64,000 nt of DNA, taken from NCBI GenBank assembly GCA_018394295.1, contig CP074573.1, positions 1,364,001-1,428,000 on the forward strand, in the 5' to 3' direction. Below are positions 8,293 through 43,443 of this stretch, piece after piece. The position numbers and the translations under genes were made by a program. Position 1 is the first letter of the stretch. Every line of letters starts with the position of its first letter. The notes under the pieces were generated by a model, which did no database searches, had not been told where the DNA came from, and saw only the letters and a program-made list of their open reading frames with translations. The stretch is from Mycoplasmatota bacterium. Lineage in GTDB: Bacteria; Bacillota_I; Bacilli_A; Haloplasmatales; Haloplasmataceae.

Positions 8293-10371
8293 TTAATTCA
8301 TAAATTTAGGTAATTGAAAATATACAAGTTCAGGATTGCCCAACAAAATATAAAATACTGACTCAGGAAAAATACCTTTTGATTGAATTACAGCATTTAT
8401 ATACTCTTCCATTTTTTCTTCTTTAGCTATTTCCATCAATCTTTCAATACTATCTTCATATATATGTTTTGGCCTCAATTGGACTCCAGATTTGTTCATC
8501 ATAAATTTCTCTAGTGGCGATTGTCCTCTATTTCTTTGAGTAGCCCATTTCTTTAGTTTCTTAGAGGATTCGATAATTTCCAGGATAGCATTCGTTCCTA
8601 CAACATGGCACCAAATTCTATCCAGAGTATCAAGTTCAGTTCTTCCATTCATGGCCTCACTTATATATGTAATTAATCTATTCATTAGCAATATATTTTT
8701 TTGAACGTGTATCGGGATAAGAGTTCCCATTACACAAATAGCCCCATTTCTAAAGAACAAATCGGATACGTTTATTGCGCCTAGACCTTTTGGACTAACA
8801 TGGCATGCACTCAATAATACTACTTCCGGCACATGAAAATCATTATCATTTCCAAACCAAAGCTCATCGCCAACAAGAATTCCAGTTATTTTCCTATCAG
8901 TATCATAATGACCATGCGCAGAAACAATTAGTATATCAGCATCTTGATTTTTTTTGATAAATTTCTTTAACCTATGTACTGTATTAGTTTCTTCACGAAT
9001 AATTTCAATCTTCTCATCAATACTCCAGAATTTCTCTATGGCACTCCATCCTTCATCAGAGTAGCTTCTTATACTATCATCTTTCTTTAGACATTCTGCA
9101 ATAATTATCTTACATTTATCCAAAATAAGTACATCATTCACTCCTGACAATTCACTTTGATAAATTCTTAATAAGGGAGTCAATCCTTTCCCTGAAATTG
9201 GAGTATAGCAGTTTAAAGGGGATGTCGTACCAGGAAGAATTGCTAAACCAAAAGGCAGCTCAGAAAAGTAGGAGATTTGCTTTGAATTTCTTAATAATTC
9301 AAGTTCAAAACCACTTAATTGAGAAGCCAAAATATCGCCTATTCTTTCCATTGATTTCCAGATGAATTTATTACTAATATTTTCTTTACAATGTTCTTCT
9401 AATTTATATATTATATCGAACAACTCTTTTCCCATATAGCCTAACTCTAGGTATGCTGCGCTCCTAGATATTGCTCTATATAACCCTAAATTTTTTATTG
9501 AAAGTAATTCGATTTCATAGTTGTCTTCTAACCCATCGCCTCTATACCTTTTAGTTTGGATGTTAGGTATACCAGGTAGAGTTACAACCAATGGTTTGAA
9601 ATTTACATTTAAGTTTTTTTTCAATTCAGTTTCATAGAGTCTTTTATTAATTGTTTTGTCTTCAGAAAGTTTCTCTTTAATTGCGGACATTGTTTTTATT
9701 CTAATGTTGTAATTATCAAGAGTACCAGAAACATATTCCAAAATATGATCAACATCTTGACTTTGTACCATAAACTTTTCAAAATCATCATTCTGGATTG
9801 TGTAGAAAAATGCTGGTAATAAATTCAACTCTTTTCCAGAAAGAAATTTATCTAAATTAGGAATATCTATTCTTTCTGAATGCCCATTTTCAAATAAATC
9901 TTGCAAATCTGACCATATTTTCATTGGACTACAAGATCTAAATTCACCGAAAGATTTAATGCCAAGGATAGGTCTAAGCTTAGTATCTAGTTTCACAGCT
10001 TCATCATAGCAACCTTCCTCATATAGCACCAGTGCACCCTCATAATCAATAATACTTTCCATATTCGAAATAGTGTCTACTAAATATTTAGGTAAAAAAA
10101 TAATGCTATGAGACATATTATTTAGTTCTGTTAGCAAGTGAAAAGGGATTTTGAATAAATCTGAAGTATGTCTTGGTAACTGAAAAATCTTTGAAAAAAT
10201 ATCTATGGAATTAAATAGCTCCTTTGGGAGTAAGTGAAATGTATTAGCATTTTTCCTTATCTCCTCCAATGTTCCAATAACAATTGGGTTTATATCCTCT
10301 AGTTCATCTTCTGACATATAAATAACAAAATATGTAAGTCTATTTCTCCTTAAAGACGTCTTATCGTTCAT
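8293..10371 (-). CDS. CHAT-domain cysteine protease
   Basis: 692 residues with a caspase-like CHAT domain in the C-terminal third. The predicted catalytic His is in ILIVSAHGHYD (about residue 482) and the Cys in VVLLSACHVSP (about 523). The N-terminal 450 residues are helical and not recognised; no clear TPR is visible. CHAT proteases cut partner proteins, for example the TPR-CHAT protease of type III-E CRISPR systems. The ATG overlaps the end of the upstream gene by 11 nt, so the two are translationally coupled. Location inside a mobile island suggests a defence or toxin role; the substrate is unknown. Confidence 0.8.
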   Translation of the reverse strand: MNDKTSLRRNRLTYFVIYMSEDELEDINPIVIGTLEEIRKNANTFHLLPKELFNSIDIFSKIFQLPRHTSDLFKIPFHLLTELNNMSHSIIFLPKYLVDTISNMESIIDYEGALVLYEEGCYDEAVKLDTKLRPILGIKSFGEFRSCSPMKIWSDLQDLFENGHSERIDIPNLDKFLSGKELNLLPAFFYTIQNDDFEKFMVQSQDVDHILEYVSGTLDNYNIRIKTMSAIKEKLSEDKTINKRLYETELKKNLNVNFKPLVVTLPGIPNIQTKRYRGDGLEDNYEIELLSIKNLGLYRAISRSAAYLELGYMGKELFDIIYKLEEHCKENISNKFIWKSMERIGDILASQLSGFELELLRNSKQISYFSELPFGLAILPGTTSPLNCYTPISGKGLTPLLRIYQSELSGVNDVLILDKCKIIIAECLKKDDSIRSYSDEGWSAIEKFWSIDEKIEIIREETNTVHRLKKFIKKNQDADILIVSAHGHYDTDRKITGILVGDELWFGNDNDFHVPEVVLLSACHVSPKGLGAINVSDLFFRNGAICVMGTLIPIHVQKNILLMNRLITYISEAMNGRTELDTLDRIWCHVVGTNAILEIIESSKKLKKWATQRNRGQSPLEKFMMNKSGVQLRPKHIYEDSIERLMEIAKEEKMEEYINAVIQSKGIFPESVFYILLGNPELVYFQLPKFMN

Positions 10372-11977: not shown

Positions 11978-12422
11978 TTTTATACATCTCTCCTTTATAT
12001 CTCTCCAATTTTACTCAATAAATTATCCATTATCAAATATCCCCCTTTATTCATTCATCATATTATACCATTTTTAGACTATAAATTAAACTATAAAGGA
12101 AATAATCTAAAGAAGACCTTATTTTTTTCAAAGCTATTTCCAATTGTTAATTTTATTTGGGCTTTATAAATCAAAGATTAAGATTAAATGATAATTATTC
12201 ATTAGTATCATTGGTTTTACCTAGTATTTTAACAAAAAATTTTTGATTTATTTGTATGTAGATTTGGGTTCAAATAGTTTTTTATTTAGCTCAACAGATT
12301 TAACAAATTAACTTATAATTTCAATTTTATATTTGATATCCACATTGCTATTCTTCAATAGCTTTGACAACATATCAACAAAAACTTTTATATCCTTTTT
12401 TATTTAGTTTTCAGTTTTTATA
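11978..12422. other. Non-coding stretch
   Basis: A/T-rich; no credible gene, RNA or repeat seen beyond the likely promoter of the 11717-11977 gene near its right side. Confidence 0.45.
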
Positions 12423-12641
12423 TCAATTATATAATATGATTATTTCATTGTTAAACAATAAGAGCATTAGAAAGAATTCACTCTCTAATGCTTGATTTAT
12501 TTTCTCTAACAGATATGGTTCTTGATAAAATGATCTCATAGGTCTTGAATCACTCTTCTTAAATCGTTCATAGACATATGCTTTTAATTCCTGATGATTA
12601 ATTGACAAATTACCTACTTTATATTTGTTACCAAAAAACAC
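12423..12641 (-). CDS. Short doubtful gene or gene fragment
   Basis: 72 codons with a plausible soluble part (INHQELKAYVYERFKKSD) followed by a low-complexity hydrophobic end. No ribosome binding site precedes the ATG. It may be the start of a truncated gene. Not recognised. Confidence 0.25.
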   Translation of the reverse strand: MFFGNKYKVGNLSINHQELKAYVYERFKKSDSRPMRSFYQEPYLLEKINQALESEFFLMLLLFNNEIIILYN

Positions 12642-12721: not shown

Positions 12722-12955
12722 TCAATGTCTGATAAGATATTTTCCATTTTTTAATTCACTGACTTCAATATCATTTAAGACATATTCACTTGCTTCTTCT
12801 ATAGACAATTCTGAGAATATTGAACATATTTTAATTACATCTAATATTTCAATTTTACCCTGACCTTCATTTAATATTGAATATATTCTTTCAAGACCTT
12901 CTTCACTAAATTGATCCTCCCTTGAATATCATTCAAATTCATATTTGAAATCATC
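12722..12955 (-). pseudogene. Decayed small gene
   Basis: A coding-like frame (EGLERIYSILNEGQGKIEIL, then SIEEASEYVLNDIEVSELK) with an acidic helical pattern. It is preceded in frame by a TGA after YDDFKYEFE and has no start with a binding site. Family unknown. A 17-nt direct repeat (ATCATAACCTATCCTTT) lies just upstream. Confidence 0.4.
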
Positions 12956-13039
12956 ATAACCTATCCTTTTAACTATCATAACCTATCCTTTAGCACCTTC
13001 CATTAAAGTATTTAAATTTACTCTTTAGTAAGTTTAATT

Positions 13040-13300
13040 GGCGGGGGAGTGAAACAACCAACGCCCCACCTTCGTTGTTCGAGCTTATCTCAGCTCTATG
13101 AATTTATTTATTAGATTTGTTGTTTCTATGCAAATAGTGTTGGAATTAATTCTGCTATTACCTATCAACAAATAACCTATAGAGGGTAAGTTTCCTATCC
13201 CCGTATTATTTAATTGACTCAACTTAAATTCGTTGACCACTATCTTACACCTGAACTGGAAGCAACTTCTCGCACCAGAACATCTTTCTTTAATTAATTG
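13040..13300 (-). ncRNA. Structured RNA A with 3' H-type pseudoknot
   Basis: This stretch is not coding but is rich in pairing on the minus strand: CTGG/CCAG around GAAGTTGCTTC, TCAAC/GTTGA, AATAA/TTATT, AATAG/CTATT, GAGCT/AGCTC. At its 3' end GAACAAC (13080-13074) pairs with GTTGTTT, and the interleaved GGTGGGG (13070-13064) pairs with CCCCGCC (13046-13040). G-U pairs work only on the minus strand, which sets the orientation. It lies 30 nt after ssb. No Rfam family recognised. Confidence 0.65.
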
Positions 13301-13332
13301 TTAGTAGAATTTTATTTTATTAAAATTTTTAT

Positions 13333-13665
13333 CTAATCAAACTCTTTACGAGAATTAATATAAGTTATTTTTTCACCCACTATTTCCGGGATATGTATGG
13401 TCCCATTCTTTGTTTCAATTGATGCTTGTTGAATTCTTGCTTTAATACCAACTACAGATCCTTCTTTTAGAAAATCTAATGCAGCACCCTCTACCCCCTC
13501 CCATAAACTTATAGTAACTAAATCACTGTCATATTCTAATGTATTGGGGTTTTTGAAACTTCTTTTAATATCGAGTGTAATTTTTATTTTATTAACACCA
13601 GATTCTATTGTTTCACTAATAGGATTCCCAACTAATCTTCCAACCAATATACACTGATTTAACAT
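13333..13665 (-). CDS. ssb: Single-stranded DNA-binding protein, short mobile-element type
   Basis: 110 residues with the OB-fold start MLNQCILVGRLVGNP and a central DLVTISLWEG. It lacks the acidic tail (usually ending IPF) of chromosomal SSB, as is common in plasmid and phage versions. The ATG follows directly after the stop of the upstream gene, whose 3' end holds the AAAGGAGG site. Last gene of the operon 15163 to 13333. It probably protects single strands during element replication or transfer. Confidence 0.75.
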   Translation of the reverse strand: MLNQCILVGRLVGNPISETIESGVNKIKITLDIKRSFKNPNTLEYDSDLVTISLWEGVEGAALDFLKEGSVVGIKARIQQASIETKNGTIHIPEIVGEKITYINSRKEFD

Positions 13666-13950
13666 TTATTTTTTCCTCCTTTTATTATAATGCTTATTTG
13701 TTCTTTGATGAATATTATCAAATTTATATGTAAAGTTATCGTTATTAAAATCCACTACATTGACACTTTCTGTTACAATGACAACCTTATCTTTACTATA
13801 TGTTTCTGTTCTTCTTGTCGCATTTGTTAAGTTATTTTGATAACCTTTCTTATATCGTCCTCTATTTGTTGCAGCGACAGGTCTTGCAATACTATTATTA
13901 GAGCGATTATTTTTATATTTTTTTGTAGGATAATATTTTTGTTTAGCCAA
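13666..13950 (-). CDS. Small highly basic protein
   Basis: 94 residues with a Lys/Arg/Asn/Tyr-rich N-terminal half and a C-terminal KHYNKRRKK tail. It starts with TTG behind an excellent GGAGGTGA site. Its stop abuts ssb. Probably binds nucleic acid by charge; no family recognised. Confidence 0.55.
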   Translation of the reverse strand: MAKQKYYPTKKYKNNRSNNSIARPVAATNRGRYKKGYQNNLTNATRRTETYSKDKVVIVTESVNVVDFNNDNFTYKFDNIHQRTNKHYNKRRKK

Positions 13951-14014
13951 TTGTTCACCTCCTACTTGTACAGAACAAGAAATATTTATAAACTAATCTA
14001 TCTATTTTATACGA

Positions 14015-14491
14015 TTAATTAAGTATTTTTTCTTCTCTCATACTTGAATATTTAATATCTGACTCATCATATTGATTTCCAATAATGATATGATCAAGTA
14101 ACTCAATTCCTATTAATTCACCTACCTCATTTAGGCGTTTCGTGATGCTTATATCTTGTGGACTTGGTCGAACATCTCCACTTGGATGATTATGTGCCAC
14201 GATAATACTAGCTGAAGCAGATAGTAATGCAAAGTTAAATACTTCTCTTGGATGTACAATGGATCTATTTAGCAATCCGATAAACACTGTTTTTACTGCA
14301 ATGATTCTATTCTTGGTATCTAAACAAATTACAATCAAATGTTCTTGCATTTCCCCTTGCAAGTTAAATACATCATAAATTAATTTAGCAATGTTCTCAG
14401 GCTTTGTTACTTGAAAATCATCATCTACTTTATAATTCATGCCATTTTCTTTTACTAATACCATTTTGGTTCTATAATAATTAATACGCAT
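14015..14491 (-). CDS. radC: RadC-like JAB-domain protein
   Basis: 158 residues with the conserved metal-binding JAB motif AHNHPSGDVRPSPQD and the RadC end LLDHIIIG. It lacks the N-terminal HhH region of chromosomal RadC, so it is the short form found on plasmids, ICEs and phages. Its ATG directly follows the stop of the upstream gene. The biochemical role of this short form is not settled. Confidence 0.85.
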   Translation of the reverse strand: MRINYYRTKMVLVKENGMNYKVDDDFQVTKPENIAKLIYDVFNLQGEMQEHLIVICLDTKNRIIAVKTVFIGLLNRSIVHPREVFNFALLSASASIIVAHNHPSGDVRPSPQDISITKRLNEVGELIGIELLDHIIIGNQYDESDIKYSSMREEKILN

Positions 14492-14776
14492 TTAATACCA
14501 CTCTCCCACTCCATGATAATCAGAAAATAATGTTTCATAATTAAAGTAACTTATCTCCTTACCATTATCTATTAAGTCAGTTAAGTATTCTCTAGCACTT
14601 TGAGCAACACCAATTAATGTCTCATAATCTTTTTTCAAATAAACTTCAATATATAAATTAATAATTTTCATTTTATCTTCATCATTAATGTCAGTTAACA
14701 AATCTTCTAACTCTCTGTATATGACACTCTTTGATAATAGTTCATGTTCTGATAATTGTTTTATAACAGTTAACAT
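14492..14776 (-). CDS. Hypothetical acidic protein of the radC operon
   Basis: 94 residues from the ATG at 14776, chosen because TAGGTGAT lies at good distance before it; a GTG nine bases upstream is possible. Helical, acidic and soluble. The end (FNYETLFSDYHGVGEWY) is reminiscent of small antirestriction-type element proteins, but I cannot assign it. Coupled to radC by TAA-ATG. Confidence 0.55.
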   Translation of the reverse strand: MLTVIKQLSEHELLSKSVIYRELEDLLTDINDEDKMKIINLYIEVYLKKDYETLIGVAQSAREYLTDLIDNGKEISYFNYETLFSDYHGVGEWY

Positions 14777-14785
14777 AATTATCAC

Positions 14786-15163
14786 CTACCAAATAACTAC
14801 ATCAGAGTTAGTTTCTAAATTCTTAACCATTTGTAAATTACTTTTCAGTAACTCAATGTCTTTTGTGCTGATACCTAATATTTCGCCATTTTCATCACAG
14901 TTCCCCATAATTAATACATTACCATAAAGATATTGATTTCTATCATTTAGTAATAATGTCACCTGTGGATCTGCCTTTAATAATCCTTCATCATCAAAGT
15001 AAATTGTTTTACCTTGATAACTTACAATGTCAATTAAATCGACATTTAGATGTTTATATATTTGATGTAATTCTGATACATTAGCATGCTTATTAATCTC
15101 AATAATACTAATTTCTAAAGATTTCTTGTTATCTTTTCTTTTGATTAACAATCCTTTTTTCAT
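14786..15163 (-). CDS. DUF3846-like mobile-element protein
   Basis: 125 residues. The centre TIYFDDEGLLKADPQV followed by GNVLIMGN resembles DUF3846 proteins, found mainly on conjugative plasmids and phages. First gene of the operon with 14492, radC, 13666 and ssb. An AAAGGAG site precedes the ATG. Immediately upstream are a terminator hairpin and a 22-codon leader frame, suggesting attenuation. Confidence 0.6.
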   Translation of the reverse strand: MKKGLLIKRKDNKKSLEISIIEINKHANVSELHQIYKHLNVDLIDIVSYQGKTIYFDDEGLLKADPQVTLLLNDRNQYLYGNVLIMGNCDENGEILGISTKDIELLKSNLQMVKNLETNSDVVIW

Positions 15164-15183
15164 TTATTTCTCCTTTCATAAAC

Positions 15184-15227
15184 AAAAAAGCCTATCTTTA
15201 CGATAGACCCATTTAATCTTTACGATT
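15184..15227 (-). terminator. Twin hairpins with T-run in the DUF3846 operon leader
   Basis: On the minus strand AATC-GTAAA-GATT is followed by CTATC-GTAAA-GATAG and then GCTTTTTT. Both hairpins share the loop GTAAA. The T-run ends about 8 nt before the ribosome binding site of the 14786-15163 gene, so this is a leader terminator rather than an operon end. Confidence 0.65.
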
Positions 15228-15254
15228 TGTTTATCATACAAGCATTTACTGGGA

Positions 15255-15323
15255 CTAATACATACTCCAAAAATGATATCTTAACAAATTTAAATCGTAC
15301 TGATATTTAGCAAATATCTTCAT
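15255..15323 (-). CDS. 22-residue leader peptide candidate
   Basis: A perfect AGGAGG at 15338-15333 precedes two ATGs; the second opens MKIFAKYQYDLNLLRYHFWS and ends after two more residues with TAG. It lies just upstream of the twin-hairpin terminator, as leader peptides of attenuators do. The first ATG would give only seven residues. Confidence 0.45.
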   Translation of the reverse strand: MKIFAKYQYDLNLLRYHFWSMY

Positions 15324-15564
15324 ATATCATCGACCTCCTATAATTCTATCTGTTATCATATTTATAATATATATTAAAAATAACGGTTATGTCGGGTAAT
15401 TAAAGCTAAATATATAACATTTTATGGAAATAGTAAGGATATTTCCATTTTTATTAGGTTCTGTTCCTATCAATCATTATAGACTCTATATACACCTTTT
15501 TGATATTAGGATTAAAATACAAATTTATTTAAAAATATTAATCATCATAGAACAATAAATTAGA

Positions 15565-15755
15565 TAAATTTTAGGCCATACAGCAAGACCTGGGAGAAGT
15601 CCCGAACGCAAGAACTAGTACGAGGTAAAACCAGCTATCCTGAAAGATGGGTAAATAATATTCTGTGTAATATGCTGTTATTCCGAGATGGAATGCCCGT
15701 TGAAAGCTAGTACCTGGTAGTAAGCAGGGGGCTACCAGCCATCCCCTGCCCAAAC
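15565..15755 (+). ncRNA. Structured RNA B with 3' H-type pseudoknot
   Basis: Plus-strand pairings: GGGA/TCCC, CTATC/GATGG, AATAA/TTATT around ATATT/AATAT, ATTCC/GGAAT, ACAGCA/TGCTGT. The 3' end is a perfect pseudoknot: CTGGTAG (15714-15720) with CTACCAG (15732-15738), interleaved with GCAGGGG (15724-15730) and CCCCTGC (15743-15749). Local G/C content is far above the surroundings. The minus-strand frame that covers it (60 codons) is a Cys/Pro/Trp-rich shadow. Family not recognised; the layout of the 3' pseudoknot matches RNA A. Confidence 0.65.
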
Positions 15756-16725: not shown

Positions 16726-16789
16726 TTGTTGTTAAGATTTTATTAAAATAAAAGCTCACTAACAATTGATTAAAGAAATAGTTAGTGAG
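16726..16789 (+). promoter_or_regulatory. Operator-like element A before the 106-residue gene
   Basis: Positions 16726-16765 are a 40-nt relative of element B (17316-17355): both run TTGTT, AAGATTTTA, AAAATAAAA, ACTAACAA. Overlapping it, CTCACTAAC (16755-16763) pairs with GTTAGTGAG (16781-16789), which contains part of the ribosome binding site. It could therefore control translation. Confidence 0.45.
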
Positions 16790-16799
16790 GTGAAAATAT

Positions 16800-17120
16800 A
16801 TGATAAATAGCATTATTAAAAGTGGCGGAGGAAATATTAAGGATGGTAAAATCATCGAATATAATGATGGTTATATGGTTGGTTACTCTACTATTGCGAT
16901 TGAAAGCAAAGAGAAGATGATAGAACATTTTCCAAAATACGTCCAATTATCAAATCAAAAGAACGTCGGTTTCTGGTACAACAATAACGATGGCCTATGG
17001 TATGTGGATTTCAGCGAAAACATTGAAAGTTATATAATTGCATTAATACTAGCTATGACACGTGGAGAAAAAGCTATCTGGGACTGCCATAACTTAGCTG
17101 AAATAAAAGTGGCTGAATAA
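16800..17120 (+). CDS. Hypothetical protein, ArdA/antirestriction-sized
   Basis: 106 residues, soluble, beta-rich start (GKIIEYNDGYMVGYSTIAIE). GAGGTG lies at good distance before the ATG. No family recognised. It is the first plus-strand gene of the integration module and shares an upstream element with the excisionase. A following hairpin ends it. A regulatory or element-maintenance role is possible but not shown. Confidence 0.55.
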   Translation: MINSIIKSGGGNIKDGKIIEYNDGYMVGYSTIAIESKEKMIEHFPKYVQLSNQKNVGFWYNNNDGLWYVDFSENIESYIIALILAMTRGEKAIWDCHNLAEIKVAE

Positions 17121-17315: not shown

Positions 17316-17355
17316 TTGTTGGTAAGATTTTAATAAAATAAAATCTTACTAACAA
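17316..17355 (+). promoter_or_regulatory. 17-bp palindrome before excisionase (element B)
   Basis: TTGTTGGTAAGATTTTA and TAAAATCTTACTAACAA are inverted copies with a single G-U mismatch, separated by six bases. It lies about 55 nt before the excisionase start and has a 40-nt relative at 16726-16765. A dimeric-repressor operator or a leader hairpin are both possible. Confidence 0.5.
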
Positions 17356-17720: not shown

Positions 17721-18866
17721 ATGAATATAAAATATCAAGTAAGAGAACTAAAAAATAAAATTAAGGTATTTGAATACAGATATCGTGTAAATGGAAGACA
17801 AACGACGAAATCTTTCAGAGCAAAAAGCGCAACAAAAACTGCTGAAAAAGCAGCGATTAAAGAACTAGAAAATTTCGCTAAAGAAATAGAGGCTAAAAAA
17901 ACATTAGGAGTCGCTAAAGATGAGAGTTCAACTAAATTTTCAGAATATTCTGAATTAGTATTTAAAATACATGACCGAAATTTATCAGAACAAACAAAAC
18001 AAAATAGACAATATTATCTTAGTGTAATCAATGAATATATTGGTAACGTTAAATTAAAAAATTTAACCGCAACTAGAATTGAAAGCTTTCTAGTAAAAAT
18101 GTCAGAAACTAAATCCGACCAAGTTCTAAGTAAATACAAACAAATTATTAATATTGTAATGGATCATGCTTTTTCAAAAGATCTAATCCCTATTAATCCT
18201 ATGATGAAGGTTAGAATTAAAATTAGTCAAAAAAATATTAAAGAAGTACAACCAATTGATATTAAAGAACTTGAGAAATATCTTGAAATCGCAAGAGGAA
18301 ATAAAAAATACTATTTTACTTTACTCTTAATGCTTTATACCGGAATGCGAGTTGGTGAAGCATTAGCATTACAATTTGATGATTGGGATTTTGAAAGAAA
18401 TATTATCCATATTACAAAAAACCGGAAAAGAAATGGTAAGATTGGTCCAGTTAAGAAAGACCGTCCAAGAACATTTCCTATTCACGAGAAATTAAAAGAA
18501 TTATATGATGAAGTTAAAACCTGGCACGATTATAATAAAGAAATACTAGAAGATGATTATGAAGACAACAATTTATTTATCGCACACGAAGATGGTCAGT
18601 TTATTCCTTACAGTGCTTTTAGACAATATTTAAGAAGACTAGATAAAACTGGCATAAAAATACGCCCCCACCAATTACGCCATACATTTGCGACATTGTT
18701 TGACGATATTAATCTTAAGGATTTACAAGCGATGGGTGGTTGGAAAGATGTTGATACATTGATTAATGTCTACCAGGCACATAAAGGATATAAAACTAAG
18801 ACTATTAAAACGCTTAATGAAAAGTTTAGTAATATAAAAAATGGTAATGAGAGCAAATCAATTTGA
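17721..18866 (+). CDS. int: Tyrosine recombinase, island integrase
   Basis: 381 residues. The N-terminal basic region (about 1-60) fits an AP2-like arm-binding domain, then a SAM-like core-binding domain (about 70-165). The catalytic domain shows LYTGMRVGEALAL (Arg), the HQLRHTFATL box (His/Arg, about 317-320) and INVYQAH with Tyr about 351. AGGAGG precedes the ATG. It ends in TGA. It should catalyse integration and excision between the tRNA-Thr site and the copy carried by the element; the arm repeats at 7982 and 24984 are its likely extra binding sites. Confidence 0.92.
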   Translation: MNIKYQVRELKNKIKVFEYRYRVNGRQTTKSFRAKSATKTAEKAAIKELENFAKEIEAKKTLGVAKDESSTKFSEYSELVFKIHDRNLSEQTKQNRQYYLSVINEYIGNVKLKNLTATRIESFLVKMSETKSDQVLSKYKQIINIVMDHAFSKDLIPINPMMKVRIKISQKNIKEVQPIDIKELEKYLEIARGNKKYYFTLLLMLYTGMRVGEALALQFDDWDFERNIIHITKNRKRNGKIGPVKKDRPRTFPIHEKLKELYDEVKTWHDYNKEILEDDYEDNNLFIAHEDGQFIPYSAFRQYLRRLDKTGIKIRPHQLRHTFATLFDDINLKDLQAMGGWKDVDTLINVYQAHKGYKTKTIKTLNEKFSNIKNGNESKSI

Positions 18867-18929
18867 TTTACCCTCATTATTTTTTTTAATTTAATATATG
18901 TTATATTTTTTATTCTACTTATTTTAGCA

Positions 18930-19200
18930 ATAACATTTGACTACTGGCATAAAAAGGTACATCCGTTTACCAAATATACTTTGAGGAAAACTTGTTAATT
19001 CGTTAATATTTTCAACTGGAACTAAAACCGTTAGATCAGAATAAAAGACACATGTATCAGACTATTGAGTTTCTTGTTGCATGAAAAATTATTGCTTTTA
19101 TGTCTTTAAAGTCAACAAATCGTTCAAAATTCTAGCCAAAATAAAATATCTTTCTATGTAGTGATCTGAATTAATAATACCCGATTCATCTAGTACTAAT
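18930..19200 (-). pseudogene. Possible DUF3800-like remnant
   Basis: Minus-strand translation gives KVLVLDESGIINSDHYIERY at the start, like the FIDESG opening of DUF3800 proteins, then interrupted pieces (KDIKAIIFHATRN, TVLVPVENINELTSFPQSIF). Several stops and shifts separate them. The family assignment rests on the LDESG motif only. Confidence 0.35.
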
Positions 19201-19204
19201 ACTT

Positions 19205-22200
19205 TTATAATCCCCAGAATCTATTAAAGAAATCAACAAGTCTCTGTAATACGTGCTTTTTCTTTTCACTTCTGTTAATACCTTCTGTATTTCCAAACAT
19301 TGAAATCGGTGGAAGCACTTTAACTATTGATGTTCCTGTTTCTTTAATTTCTCCATTTCTAAAAGCTTCATTAATAAATGATTTTGTTTCTTCAGAATTT
19401 AAATTCTCCTCATTTATTATTTTTTCAAGCTCTTCCTTTTTTTTGTTCTCAATATATTCACACCATTCATCTGTAACAGTAGCATCAACTGTTAATGAAG
19501 CAATAAAATTTAGAATTAAGTCTTTTTTGTTTCTTAACGATGGAGATGAATCTATTGCTTTTCTGATTTCAATTTCTTTATCTTCAATGTGTTCTCCATG
19601 GAATTTATCAACCAGCATCAATATATAGTCAATATTTACTTCAACCGATTTTACAAGTTCAATTTCAAATTCAATCTCTTCATTGATTTGTTCCGCATCA
19701 GCTCCACGATTTCTACGATATTTGTCATATAGACTTAAGTAAATACTTTGGTAATCCTGATAATCGAAATCACTTAATATTTCATTACCCTTGAAATCAT
19801 CAAAACTGACAAGAATGTTCTTTGTCTTCAATATCTGATTAAACAATGAAATAAATGCTTTTTCAGCTCGCTCTCCCATGATTTCATGTCCAAGTGGATA
19901 CTGGTCCAGTAATTCTTGTACTAAGTTCTTATAACCTTTGAATCCCTCATATCCTTCATAATATTCTTTAAAGGATTTAAGTAAAACTACTCCACCAGCT
20001 TCTTTATCTCCAAAGATGCTAATTGCTTTGTTTACTTGTGGTTCTAAGTTTCTAAAACAGATCACATTTCCAAATGTTTTTATTGAGTTCAAAATTCGGT
20101 TTGTTCTTGAGAACGCTTGAATCAGCCCATGCATTCTAAGTTTCTTATCGACCCAAATTGTGTTCAAAGTAGTAGCATCAAAACCAGTTAAGAACATATT
20201 AACCACAATTAATAGATCTACTTCTTTATTTTTAACTCGCAAACTCAAATCTTTGTAGTAATTTTGAAATTTATCACTAGAAGTATCATAACTTGTTCCG
20301 AACATTTCATTATAATCCTGAATGGCTTCTTCTAAGAAATCTCTTGAACTCTGGTCTAGTTTTTCTGTAGACTCGTTATTCTCATCAAAAATACCATCTA
20401 GTGATTCATTAGGACTCCAACTAAATATAGTAGCGATTTTTAATCTACTTGCAGGTACATACTCTTCTTGTTGTCGCTTGAATTCAAGGTAATACTTCTT
20501 AGCTGCTTTAATACTCGCTACAGCAAAAATAGCATTAAATCCAGTTGTCTTAAGTGATTGTCTATTCTCCACACTTTTTGTAAGTCTTGATTGATATTTA
20601 CTTTTAGCGACTTCTTCAACATTTAGTAGTTTGCTGAAACTATATGCTTTTTCATTTCTTTTTGTCTTTTGAGCGAAGTGCTCTAACGTATAAGATACAT
20701 TTACTGCAATTCGTAGATCATCCAGTAAAGCTTCTTCTCGTTTAATATCATATACCTCTTCATTGTCATCAATGTCTTCTGATGCTTTTACCGTATTTAA
20801 ATAATCAATTCTGAATGGTAAGACGTTACCATCATGAATTGCATTAACAATTGTGTATGTATGTAATTGATGACCGAATGCTTGTTCGGTTGTTTTAAGC
20901 GTTGGAAACTTGTTACTAGTGGATGCATTAATCGCAAATATAGGAGTTCCAGTAAATCCAAAGATATAATACTTTTTAAACGCCTTCACAATATCTCGAT
21001 GCATATCGCCAAATTGTGATCGATGACACTCATCAAAGATAAAAACTATTTCTTTAAAATAGATATCGTGTGTTGGATTTTTCTTTATGAAAATTGCCAG
21101 TTTTTGAATAGTAGTAATGATTATTCTAGCATTTAAATCTTCTAGTTGTTTTTTTAGAACGGATGTACTAGTATTTGAATTTGCTGCACCTTTTTCAAAC
21201 TTATCATACTCTTTCATTGTTTGGTAATCTAAATCTTTTCTATCAACAACAAATAGTACTTTATTAATGTATTCTATTTCTGAAGCAATACGTGCTGTCT
21301 TAAATGAAGTTAATGTTTTACCAGAACCTGTCGTATGCCAAACATAACCACCAGCCTCGATTTTTCCATATTTTTTACTATTGTGTGCAATGTTAATTTG
21401 ATTAATGATTTTTTCTGTAGCAGCAATTTGATATGGTCTCATAACTAGTAATAAATCATCAACTGTAAATACACAAAATTTGGTAAGGACATTTAATAAC
21501 GTATGTTTTGATAAGAATGTATCTGTAAAATCATATAGTTCTAGAATATTCTTATTATTTGCATCTGCCCAATAACTAGTAAATTCAAATGAGTGACTTG
21601 TTTTTTTCTTAGTTGCAATGGAACCCTGATTTTCTTTTGTCGCTAATTCTCTAGTTGTATTTGAGTAATATTTTGTTTCAGTTCCATTTGAAATAACAAA
21701 AATCTGTGCATATTGGTACAATCCACTATCTGCCCAGAAACTCTCATTTTCATATCGTCTTATCTGATTAAACGCTTCTTTAATTGATACACCACGACGT
21801 TTTAATTCAATGTGAACTAAAGGTAATCCATTAACCAAAATTGTTACATCATAAATATTTTTTCTTTTACCATCGACTACATATTGATGAATTACCTGAA
21901 GTTGATTATTGTGAATCTGCTTTTTATCAAGTAAACGAATGTTAATCGATGAGTCATCATCTCTTTTTAGTGTAAATATATAATCTTCTTGAATCTTTCT
22001 AGTCTTGTCAACAATTCCATCATTTGGATTATCGATATACTTACTAAAAATCTCTTCCCATTCGTTTTGAGTAAATGTATAGTTGTTTAGGCGTTCTAGT
22101 TGATTACGTAAATTAATAACAAAATCTTGATTATTGTGAATATTAACATAAGAATATCCTTGACTTTTTAGTTGCTTTATCAAATTATTCTCAAGATCTG

Positions 22201-22297
22201 ATTCACTTTGATAAGTCTTTTGGCGTTTGAATTTAGACTTATATTCAGCAACAACAGTAGATTCATTTTGTTGAATTATAACTTTATATTCATCCAT
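19205..22297 (-). CDS. hsdR: Type I restriction endonuclease subunit R
   Basis: 1030 residues, the usual HsdR length. The nuclease motif is IYDVTILVNG then VHIELKRRG (D...ExK, about 150-168). Motor motifs: VWHTTGSGKTLTS (Walker A), FIFDECHRSQFG (DExH form), GFTGTPIF, and GLIQAFSRTNRI near motif VI. It translocates DNA with ATP and cuts unmodified DNA at a distance when bound to the modification complex. It starts 13 nt after hsdM-S, so they form one operon. No sign of decay. Confidence 0.95.
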   Translation of the reverse strand: MDEYKVIIQQNESTVVAEYKSKFKRQKTYQSESDLENNLIKQLKSQGYSYVNIHNNQDFVINLRNQLERLNNYTFTQNEWEEIFSKYIDNPNDGIVDKTRKIQEDYIFTLKRDDDSSINIRLLDKKQIHNNQLQVIHQYVVDGKRKNIYDVTILVNGLPLVHIELKRRGVSIKEAFNQIRRYENESFWADSGLYQYAQIFVISNGTETKYYSNTTRELATKENQGSIATKKKTSHSFEFTSYWADANNKNILELYDFTDTFLSKHTLLNVLTKFCVFTVDDLLLVMRPYQIAATEKIINQINIAHNSKKYGKIEAGGYVWHTTGSGKTLTSFKTARIASEIEYINKVLFVVDRKDLDYQTMKEYDKFEKGAANSNTSTSVLKKQLEDLNARIIITTIQKLAIFIKKNPTHDIYFKEIVFIFDECHRSQFGDMHRDIVKAFKKYYIFGFTGTPIFAINASTSNKFPTLKTTEQAFGHQLHTYTIVNAIHDGNVLPFRIDYLNTVKASEDIDDNEEVYDIKREEALLDDLRIAVNVSYTLEHFAQKTKRNEKAYSFSKLLNVEEVAKSKYQSRLTKSVENRQSLKTTGFNAIFAVASIKAAKKYYLEFKRQQEEYVPASRLKIATIFSWSPNESLDGIFDENNESTEKLDQSSRDFLEEAIQDYNEMFGTSYDTSSDKFQNYYKDLSLRVKNKEVDLLIVVNMFLTGFDATTLNTIWVDKKLRMHGLIQAFSRTNRILNSIKTFGNVICFRNLEPQVNKAISIFGDKEAGGVVLLKSFKEYYEGYEGFKGYKNLVQELLDQYPLGHEIMGERAEKAFISLFNQILKTKNILVSFDDFKGNEILSDFDYQDYQSIYLSLYDKYRRNRGADAEQINEEIEFEIELVKSVEVNIDYILMLVDKFHGEHIEDKEIEIRKAIDSSPSLRNKKDLILNFIASLTVDATVTDEWCEYIENKKKEELEKIINEENLNSEETKSFINEAFRNGEIKETGTSIVKVLPPISMFGNTEGINRSEKKKHVLQRLVDFFNRFWGL

Positions 22298-22310
22298 TAA
22301 AACACCCCCT

Positions 22311-24521
22311 TTAGAATTTTAATAATTTATTTCGATAATACTCATATTGTTTTCTTCTAGCTTCTATCTCAGCAGGTAAACCTTCTTTTATGTCATTAAC
22401 CAAAATCTCAAATGCATCTAGTATACTTGCAATTTTGATTTGTATTTCTATTGATGGTATTGGAATAATTAGATTTTTGACAATATTAGCATTTAAATTT
22501 TTCACTGTCCCTATGTTGGCCCCTGATGACATTTGCTGTTGTATTAGATTTGAGCTTAATAAATGATACAAAAAGTCAGAGTTTAATTCAGTTTCATAAT
22601 CAGTAATTGCAAGCCATCCATCGTGTATACATCCATCTATTTGTAAAATGTAAGGTCTACCAAAACTCATTGAATTTGATAAGATGAAATCTCCAGGTTT
22701 TACGTAGCGTGATTTTGTCGCTCCATCAAGCGTTATTTTCTCTTTGCTTTCTGTAATATATTTAGTACCAGGTTTAGCATCTCCAATTTTTATCCAATTA
22801 ACACCATTTTCATCTACGGTTACGTAGTCTTTAATTGGTCTTGGTGATGCTCCTCTAATTATGGTTGCCACATCTCCAAATTTAACAAATCTTGTGTTTT
22901 CAGTATCAAATGATAATAATGTAAGATTAGCGACAATTTCATCAATTGATTTTCTTAGTGAATCAATTTTCTTAACAATATTCTTTATTTCTAGATTGAG
23001 TAAAACATTATCAATTTCTTCATTGTGATTCTCTGTTTCAATATATGTATTGACCGAAAGATTATAATCTCTTTCTACAATTTCATTTATTACTACGTAT
23101 CTAGAAAAATGATCTTCATCAGTCTTATATCGCACAGACTCTAAAATTCTACTGATATTCTCTTTTGTTAGTTTGTTCTTAGTACCTAATCTAACAAATT
23201 CATCACTTGCATCAATAAAGTGAATCTTGTTTTCAGATTTGTTTTTGCGGAGTATCATAATTGCTGTTGATATGGTGTTACCAAAGAATAAATCGGATGG
23301 TAGTTGTATAATTGAATCAATGAAATTATTATCGATTAAATACTTTCTAATCTTTTGTTCAGTTCCACCACGATATAAAATACCTGGGAACTCAACAATC
23401 GCTGCTGTACCATTTGAGGATAACCAATTTAATATATGCATAACAAAAGCATAGTCTGCTTTTGACTTTGGTGCTAATACACCTGCAGGAGCAAATCTCT
23501 CATCATTAATAAATAATGGATTGTCTTTTCCGTCCCAGTTTGTTGAATATGGAGGATTTGATACAATAGCCTCAAATGGTTTGTCATCCCAATGAACTGG
23601 ATTTTTCAATGTATCACCATATGCTATATCGAATTTTTCAAAATTGATATCATGTAAAAACATATTAATTCTAGCTAAGTTATAAGTAGTTAAATTGATT
23701 TCCTGTCCGAAAAATCCTAACTTAACATTATCTTTTCCTAATATCTTAGCAAATTTTAATAGCAATGATCCTGATCCACATGCTGGATCATATACTTTTT
23801 CAACCTTCTCTTTATCCGGTATAACTTTATTCCCATTTTTATCAACTGTTTCATTACCAAAATCAATTAATGTTAGTTTTGTTAGTAACTCACTTACTTC
23901 TTGTGGAGTAAAAAACTCTCCTCCCGACTTTCCTGCATTTGCTGCATACATTGTCATCAAGAACTCATATGCATCTCCAAATGCATCAATTGTGTTATCC
24001 TCATATTTTCCAAGTCTTAGTTTATCAACTGCAGTTATAAGTTTTCTTAACTTGTCATTTTTCTCAATAACCGTTCGACCCAGTTTATTTGAGTTAACAT
24101 CGATATCATCAAACAAACCTTTTAGGTTGTCTTCAGATTCAGTTCCTTGTGCGGATTTTTCAATATTCTTAAATATGTTTTCTAAAGTTATATTTAGATC
24201 TTCATCGTTTTTTGCTTTTTTAGCCACATTTGAGAAAAGTTCACTAGGCAAAATAAAAAAACCCTTCTCATCTACAACTTGCTTACTTGCAGATTCAGCT
24301 ACTTCATCTGACAAATTCTCATAATTAAATTCTTTATATCCTGAAGCTTTTTCGTTTTTATTTAGGTATGTAACCAGATTCTCTGAAATGAATCTATAGA
24401 ATAGCATTCCAAGTACATATTGCTTAAAATCCCATCCATCAACAGAACCTCTAAGGTCGTTGGCAATTTGCCATATCGTTTTATGTAATTGTGCTCTTTC
24501 GCGTTCTTTTTGATTTGACAT
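22311..24521 (-). CDS. hsdM: Fused HsdM methyltransferase and single-TRD HsdS
   Basis: 736 residues from the ATG behind GGAGAG (24521). Residues 1 to about 500 are HsdM: N-terminal helical domain (WQIANDLRGSVDGWDFKQYV), YDPACGSGSLLL (SAM binding) and IVSNPPYS (catalytic NPPY, adenine-N6). From about 540 it continues as a specificity unit with one target-recognition domain (FVKFGDVATIIRGASPRP onward) and the typical HsdS end GLPAEIEARRKQYEYYRNK. Normal HsdS is separate and has two domains. With one domain, two fused chains probably pair and read a symmetric bipartite site. No separate hsdS is in the window. Confidence 0.9.
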   Translation of the reverse strand: MSNQKERERAQLHKTIWQIANDLRGSVDGWDFKQYVLGMLFYRFISENLVTYLNKNEKASGYKEFNYENLSDEVAESASKQVVDEKGFFILPSELFSNVAKKAKNDEDLNITLENIFKNIEKSAQGTESEDNLKGLFDDIDVNSNKLGRTVIEKNDKLRKLITAVDKLRLGKYEDNTIDAFGDAYEFLMTMYAANAGKSGGEFFTPQEVSELLTKLTLIDFGNETVDKNGNKVIPDKEKVEKVYDPACGSGSLLLKFAKILGKDNVKLGFFGQEINLTTYNLARINMFLHDINFEKFDIAYGDTLKNPVHWDDKPFEAIVSNPPYSTNWDGKDNPLFINDERFAPAGVLAPKSKADYAFVMHILNWLSSNGTAAIVEFPGILYRGGTEQKIRKYLIDNNFIDSIIQLPSDLFFGNTISTAIMILRKNKSENKIHFIDASDEFVRLGTKNKLTKENISRILESVRYKTDEDHFSRYVVINEIVERDYNLSVNTYIETENHNEEIDNVLLNLEIKNIVKKIDSLRKSIDEIVANLTLLSFDTENTRFVKFGDVATIIRGASPRPIKDYVTVDENGVNWIKIGDAKPGTKYITESKEKITLDGATKSRYVKPGDFILSNSMSFGRPYILQIDGCIHDGWLAITDYETELNSDFLYHLLSSNLIQQQMSSGANIGTVKNLNANIVKNLIIPIPSIEIQIKIASILDAFEILVNDIKEGLPAEIEARRKQYEYYRNKLLKF

Positions 24522-24775
24522 AATATCTCTCCTAATTTTAATAATCACAATATCAGCCTAAAGTGCTAATAACATTTTAGCTACTTTTGTCCTAATTATA
24601 ACATTTATAGGTTCACTTTTAAATGAAATTTTGTCAAGTTGCATTCACTTTAGAGTCTACTCTTCTGAATACTGCTTAATTATCATAAAAATGAAATCAT
24701 ATATTCTAGCCTTTGAATAATTCTTATTGCTATCTAGTATGTAACCATATCCAAATCAAATATGAAAGAATCGAA

Positions 24776-43164: not shown

Positions 43165-43335
43165 CATTACCCAGGAGAATAATTTGTGTAGTGGTAGGTC
43201 TACCGGCTTAACTTCATCCTACTTTGCGCCTTCCCGATTTCTCAGTGACTAAATGCATTTCGTCTGTATCACGGTTGCTGGGACAGCTTGAGCTTCAAAC
43301 TCAATTCCCTGTTATGTCCTTAGGACACCATTACA
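43165..43335 (-). promoter_or_regulatory. Cobalamin riboswitch
   Basis: The conserved blocks are present in order on the minus strand: GGTG, AACAGGGAA, CCCAGCAACCGTGATAC, GTCACTGAG, CGGGAAGGCGC, AGTAGGATGAAGTTAAGCC and the B12 box GCCGGTAGACCTACCACT. It senses adenosylcobalamin-type cobamides. When it binds, the following terminator should form and shut off cobC-cblT-cobS-cblS. Confidence 0.95.
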
Positions 43336-43443
43336 TATATTCAGTTGATTAAATCTTATCATTACTAATAAAAATAGTCAATAACATGTTACCTTATATT
43401 GTACTTTTTTACAATTGTCTTTTACTCTTTCTCAACAAAGAAA

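Follow-up and report, generated by a model that had tools for sequence, protein, structure and literature searches.

A stretch of 64 kb (hereafter the window) from a 3.29-Mb bacterial genome carries two noncoding regions on opposite strands, RNA A and RNA B, which a sequence-only reading had described as structured RNAs ending in the same 3' pseudoknot and as a possible new RNA class carried by mobile elements. This raises the question of whether the two RNAs are members of one class and what either of them might do for the DNA in which it resides. Our analysis indicates that both look real, yet they look like distinct things and probably do not belong together in one new RNA class. The genome is AT-rich, with roughly 24% GC in the neighbourhood of RNA B, and the order of the host is represented by only eight genomes in the collection that we searched.

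The two RNAs flank an operon, as had been proposed, and all of its genes lie between them on the minus strand. The operon begins with a DUF3846 gene (14786-15163; Pfam PF12957, 1e-10), which is followed by p97 (14492-14785), a radC-like JAB-domain gene (14015-14491; Pfam RadC, 1.1e-40), p94 (13666-13950), and ssb (13333-13665; Pfam SSB PF00436, 5.3e-11). Both p97 and p94 encode conserved cassette proteins of unknown function. The p97 protein shows 64-80% identity to its counterparts in the related genomes G003 and G006, and its only match as a genome-wide query was in Inordinaticella fortuita 4B, while homologues of p94 occur in seven further genomes of the class. Directly before the ribosome-binding site of the first gene lies an attenuator-like intrinsic terminator (15188-15210, minus strand), which is conserved in G006. 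The terminator-like hairpin with its T-run (15188-15230, minus strand, in the window; about 12540-12570 in L006) is preceded in both the window and G006 by a second hairpin, and both hairpins have a GUAAA loop. A like hairpin stands before the first operon gene in L038, L039, L040, L041, L042, and L043 as well. This arrangement suggests attenuation control of the DUF3846-to-ssb operon.

RNA A (13040-13290, minus strand) is a structured RNA some 245-250 nt long, characterized by homologues, a consensus fold, and conservation above that of the flanking genes. Its homologues reside in two genomes of the same family, G003 (94% identity) and G006 (74%). When a covariance model of 346 positions, flanks included, was run against 395 genomes of the class, nothing was found beyond the three known copies; the weaker matches were due to the AT-rich flanks and were discarded. 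In the comparison with G003, RNA A and the dyad upstream of it form the most conserved stretch (94%), ahead of ssb (85%), p94 (79%), radC (74%), and the p86 remnant (69%). Genes and remnants together range from 51 to 85%, the low value belonging to DUF3846, which is truncated by the contig end in G003. The contrast is weaker against G006, where RNA A is identical at 80% of aligned positions, with gaps, and the genes at 64-84%.

The consensus fold of RNA A has a z score of -4.2, and none of 200 shuffled alignments, generated by column shuffles that preserve gaps and conservation, folded as well. Across the three sequences, 95.8% of the helix cells are paired, compared with 34-50% once the partners are slid against each other. 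The architecture is multi-branched with long invariant runs, and G-U pairs occur in its helices. Only two pairs changed on both sides among the three sequences, so the structure rests mainly on energy and conservation and not on covariation; the covariation support in homologues for which the sequence-only reading had called is accordingly present but thin at the level of helices. The copies also differ in length by gaps of which some are not multiples of three, which disfavours a protein-coding reading. Scanning with cmscan against Rfam gave no match at either RNA A or RNA B, whether at the gathering threshold or at E ≤ 10, in agreement with the earlier failure to place them in a known family, and the homologues of RNA A had no match at gathering. 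Seven weak Rfam matches in the region sit away from both RNAs and look like chance. Exact RNA A or RNA B patterns were absent from the viral contigs.

The 3' end of RNA A (13040-13077, minus strand) holds an H-type pseudoknot, identified by the motif scan and composed of stem 1 (S1) CAACG/CGUUG, loop L1 AA, stem 2 (S2) GGYGGGG/CCCCGCC, no L2, and an L3 of 12 nt. The scan picked it up in the window, L006, and L007. Both stems are kept in all three copies; S1 is invariant, and S2 carries one U-G/C-G change. The 7-bp stem 1 first proposed for RNA A (GAACAAC/GUUGUUU) has two mismatches in G006 (GUGGUCU). Written as S1/L1/S2/L2/L3, the geometry of RNA A is 5/2/7/0/12, whereas that of RNA B is 7/3/7/1/4. 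Both RNAs thus have a pseudoknot, and RNA B has precisely the one described for it, but the geometry is not the same in the two.

Comparing the three loci, it becomes clear that RNA A belongs to a defined cassette. The window and G003 share the order DUF3846, p97, radC, p94, ssb, RNA A, p86, a p121-family gene, and a recombinase or its remnant. One additional gene separates ssb from RNA A in G006, where p86 is followed by p137 and then by a CcrB-like recombinase (NF047343, 2.6e-98) whose match falls below the 900-bit SCCmec-specific cut-off. The G006 cassette lies directly against rlmH, where staphylococcal SCC elements insert (PMC10061031); rlmH is absent from the window and from the other cassettes examined. 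The G006 cassette resembles SCC/SCCmec in its CcrB-like large serine recombinase and its position beside rlmH, whereas the DUF3846/p97/radC/p94/ssb block and RNA A set it apart. The Ccr-type recombinase that marks an SCC-type cassette is present in G006 and survives in the window only as a remnant.

Three gene remnants lie on the minus strand of the window in unchanged order. The p86 remnant (12725-12979), directly downstream of RNA A, is 60% identical in amino acid sequence to the p86 of G006, which is intact, and contains one in-frame TGA. It is followed by the remnant of a p121/p126-family gene (12444-12608; 47% amino acid identity to the G003 protein) and by that of a large serine, Ccr-like recombinase gene (12263-12439; 42% amino acid identity over 58 residues to the G003 recombinase). 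On the other side, the cassette homology has its outer edge at a p138 gene remnant (15227-15323, minus strand), and the DNA ceases to resemble that of G006 gradually, around 15540. Given these ordered remnants and the p138 remnant at the edge, the window is read as holding a decayed SCC-like chromosome cassette. The conservation, fold, position, and cassette context of RNA A mark it as a real, conserved structured RNA belonging to an SCC-like (Ccr-recombinase) cassette. Related loci marked by the p94 protein also occur in two other families, where three of them carry a full-length CcrB-like match and none has a recognisable RNA A. Adjoining the decayed cassette is a gene for a CHAT-domain protein (8293-10371, minus strand) that matches PADLOC BovA (9.3e-23). 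Elsewhere in the window, a tyrosine integrase lies beside a type I restriction locus (17721-24548) whose HsdM has a fused single specificity domain.

We tentatively favour RNA A as a structured 5' leader of the p86-p121/p126-recombinase block of the cassette. In all three loci, it lies downstream of the ssb block, on the same strand as p86 and about 60 nt upstream of it, and in the window no terminator separates the two, which makes a leader the simplest reading. Transcription would start in a conserved, AT-rich, imperfect dyad just upstream of RNA A (13285-13337, minus strand), a presumed promoter or operator that is 94% identical in G003 and 83% identical in G006. The transcript would adopt the multi-branched fold closed by the 3' pseudoknot and would extend by about 60 nt as far as the p86 ribosome-binding site, and the fold, presumably in response to a sensed signal, would control the expression of the excision and integration genes. 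An AT-rich dyad of about 40 bp, TTGTTRGTAAGATTTTAATAAAATAAAATCTTACTAACAA, is also present upstream of p106 (16726-16765, plus strand) and of an HTH_17/xis-like gene (17316-17355, plus strand), and the copy before RNA A (13297-13337, minus strand) is weaker than these two. The full dyad core, allowing up to three mismatches, was found nowhere else in the genome. The dyad resembles an operator or promoter used in common; the copy before RNA A also gets a promoter score on the opposite strand, and the promoter call is a consensus guess.

Some observations speak against a leader. RNA A is known from three copies only, with thin covariation, and it is intact in the window despite the stop codon in p86 and the loss of the recombinase gene. 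An intact RNA beside broken genes fits better with a function of its own and is the main point for a standalone, trans-acting RNA of the cassette. This RNA would be processed or would end at the pseudoknot, and its targets would be other RNAs or proteins, of the cassette or of the host; an RNA bound by SSB or p94 is one example. Such an RNA is a real possibility, if one we hold with less than even confidence: the conserved upstream dyad, common to p106 and xis, would serve it, and the multi-branched fold with its long invariant runs would suit it, but the missing terminator after the pseudoknot and the constant distance to p86 are at odds with it. It is improbable that RNA A acts as DNA, that is, as a single-strand origin or another replication or recombination site whose strand folds. 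The long-range multi-branched fold with its pseudoknot argues against a DNA site, and the G-U pairs used in the helices suit RNA, even though RNA A is noncoding and strand-oriented, ssb adjoins it, and SCC-type cassettes encode replication functions (PMC10061031).

The reading of RNA A as a leader can be set beside known systems. Like the large structured 5' leaders (riboswitches and T-box), RNA A comprises several helices within 200-250 nt, lies on the same strand directly upstream of a conserved gene (p86), and is more conserved than that gene. Unlike them, it has no Rfam match, no known ligand, and no recognised terminator or anti-SD expression platform, and the gene downstream is a cassette gene instead of a metabolic one. 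With ROOL, GOLLD, raiA, OLE, and HEARO, it shares the mobile-element setting, a complex fold, and a pseudoknot, but cmscan returned no match to them at E ≤ 10, and RNA A sits before a gene. It is also shorter than ROOL, GOLLD, and OLE. We regard RNA A as a new family of a known sort, a mobile-element structured RNA and probably a leader, with three known copies. In limited full-text searches of the literature, neither such RNAs in SCC-type cassettes nor a pseudoknot RNA in SCCmec turned up. Large loads of genes travel on SCC-type cassettes, among them resistance genes in staphylococci; to our knowledge, the control of recombinase expression in these cassettes is poorly understood. If the leader reading is true, RNA A at the head of the recombinase block would be a concrete, testable control point. 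A cobalamin riboswitch (86.9 bits) lies at 43176-43347 on the minus strand of the window.

RNA B (15572-15755, plus strand) is an orphan, GC-rich structured RNA candidate. Its GC content of 48% is the highest among noncoding 184-nt stretches of the window, and across a 400-kb control made up of 20 stretches, each of 20 kb, sampled along the same chromosome, the rRNA operon alone reaches 46%. A GC-rich noncoding stretch in an AT-rich genome is a classic mark of structured RNA. The pseudoknot of RNA B (15714-15749, plus strand) is perfect, with all seven base pairs formed in both S1 (CTGGTAG/CTACCAG) and S2 (GCAGGGG/CCCCTGC), and its loops are TAA (L1), G (L2), and CCAT (L3). The body of RNA B has no folding advantage over shuffled sequences, so what supports this RNA is its GC content and its pseudoknot. 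Searches of several hundred genomes, phages, plasmids, and viral contigs yielded no homologue, neither by BLAST in the class and phylum samples nor with a single-sequence model in 25 genomes; weak matches of 19-70 nt look like chance. Lacking both a fold advantage and a homologue, RNA B remains a candidate. The earlier proposal of two structured RNAs thus holds for RNA A, on homologues and fold, and leaves RNA B as a strong GC-island and pseudoknot candidate only. RNA B lies just outside the conserved cassette edge, on the strand opposite to the operon, and downstream of it there is no likely plus-strand gene before p106 at 16800. We consider it a candidate noncoding RNA that stands on its own, distinct from RNA A and beyond the conserved portion of the cassette.

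The rarity of the pseudoknots was assessed with an H-type scan that set minimum lengths of 5 bp for S1 and 7 bp for a GC-rich S2. In the 64 kb, the only matches were RNA A and RNA B. Mononucleotide shuffles gave no match in 28 runs (8 + 20), and the 400-kb control gave one. A chance origin of the two pseudoknots is therefore unlikely, bearing in mind that the scan settings were picked after the pseudoknots had been seen. RNA A and RNA B differ in sequence, as had been stated, and no homology between them was detectable; the covariance model of RNA A did not score RNA B above background either, and RNA B was rejected as a relative of RNA A on both grounds. Because the two RNAs are not shown to be homologous, the differences between their stems do not amount to covariation, and the claim of covariation within one window has to be withdrawn. 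The likeness of their 3' ends is general and does not reflect homology.

The sole further match in related cassettes is a third pseudoknot RNA candidate, RNA C, which lies on the plus strand upstream of p94 in cassettes of another family (L038:7922-8020 in G051; L043:9512-9608 in G040). In G051, its pseudoknot (L038:7983) precedes p94 by about 200 nt. In the G040 homologue, S1 is kept by a compensatory change (ACTCAG/CTGAGT to ACTCTG/CAGAGT), and S2 is not kept. RNA C bears no sequence resemblance to RNA A or RNA B, and the G051 copy has no Rfam match. Two exact RNA C pattern matches in viral contigs both fall within protein-coding genes and were set aside.

We consider it unlikely that RNA A and RNA B, with or without RNA C, form one RNA class defined by a 3' pseudoknot. 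The motif is rare, its few matches are RNA A with its homologues, RNA B, and RNA C, and the loop lengths of RNA B and RNA C are alike. However, the three RNAs share no sequence or model similarity, the geometry of RNA A differs from that of RNA B, the RNA C homologue in G040 has no S2, RNA B has no homologue, and no shared sequence or structure model for a class of RNA A and RNA B was found. What stands of the proposed new class on mobile elements is RNA A, which is conserved, cassette-borne, and outside Rfam; its union with RNA B does not. The recurrence of pseudoknot RNAs in p94-related cassettes is a hint, and one case plus a partial one do not make a class. It is conceivable, although doubtful, that Ccr-type cassettes of Bacilli repeatedly carry pseudoknot-ended RNAs such as A, B, and C at replication or recombinase operons, where they would function in cassette control, with sequences that diverged beyond recognition or were independently acquired.

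An origin of the RNAs as TnpB/IscB guide (omega) RNAs or as group II intron pieces is very improbable. Although G000, G006, and G051 have TnpB genes and four of the five genomes tested have reverse transcriptases, neither a nuclease nor a reverse transcriptase was found to accompany the RNA loci, TnpB is absent from G003 despite its RNA A, and Rfam gave no match. The TnpB and reverse transcriptase loci that were examined showed no similarity to the RNAs and no such pseudoknot, and this origin was rejected on the negative comparison. Contig C1 of G000 contains eight reverse transcriptase matches with near-identical scores, dispersed over the chromosome, which are probably multicopy group II introns.
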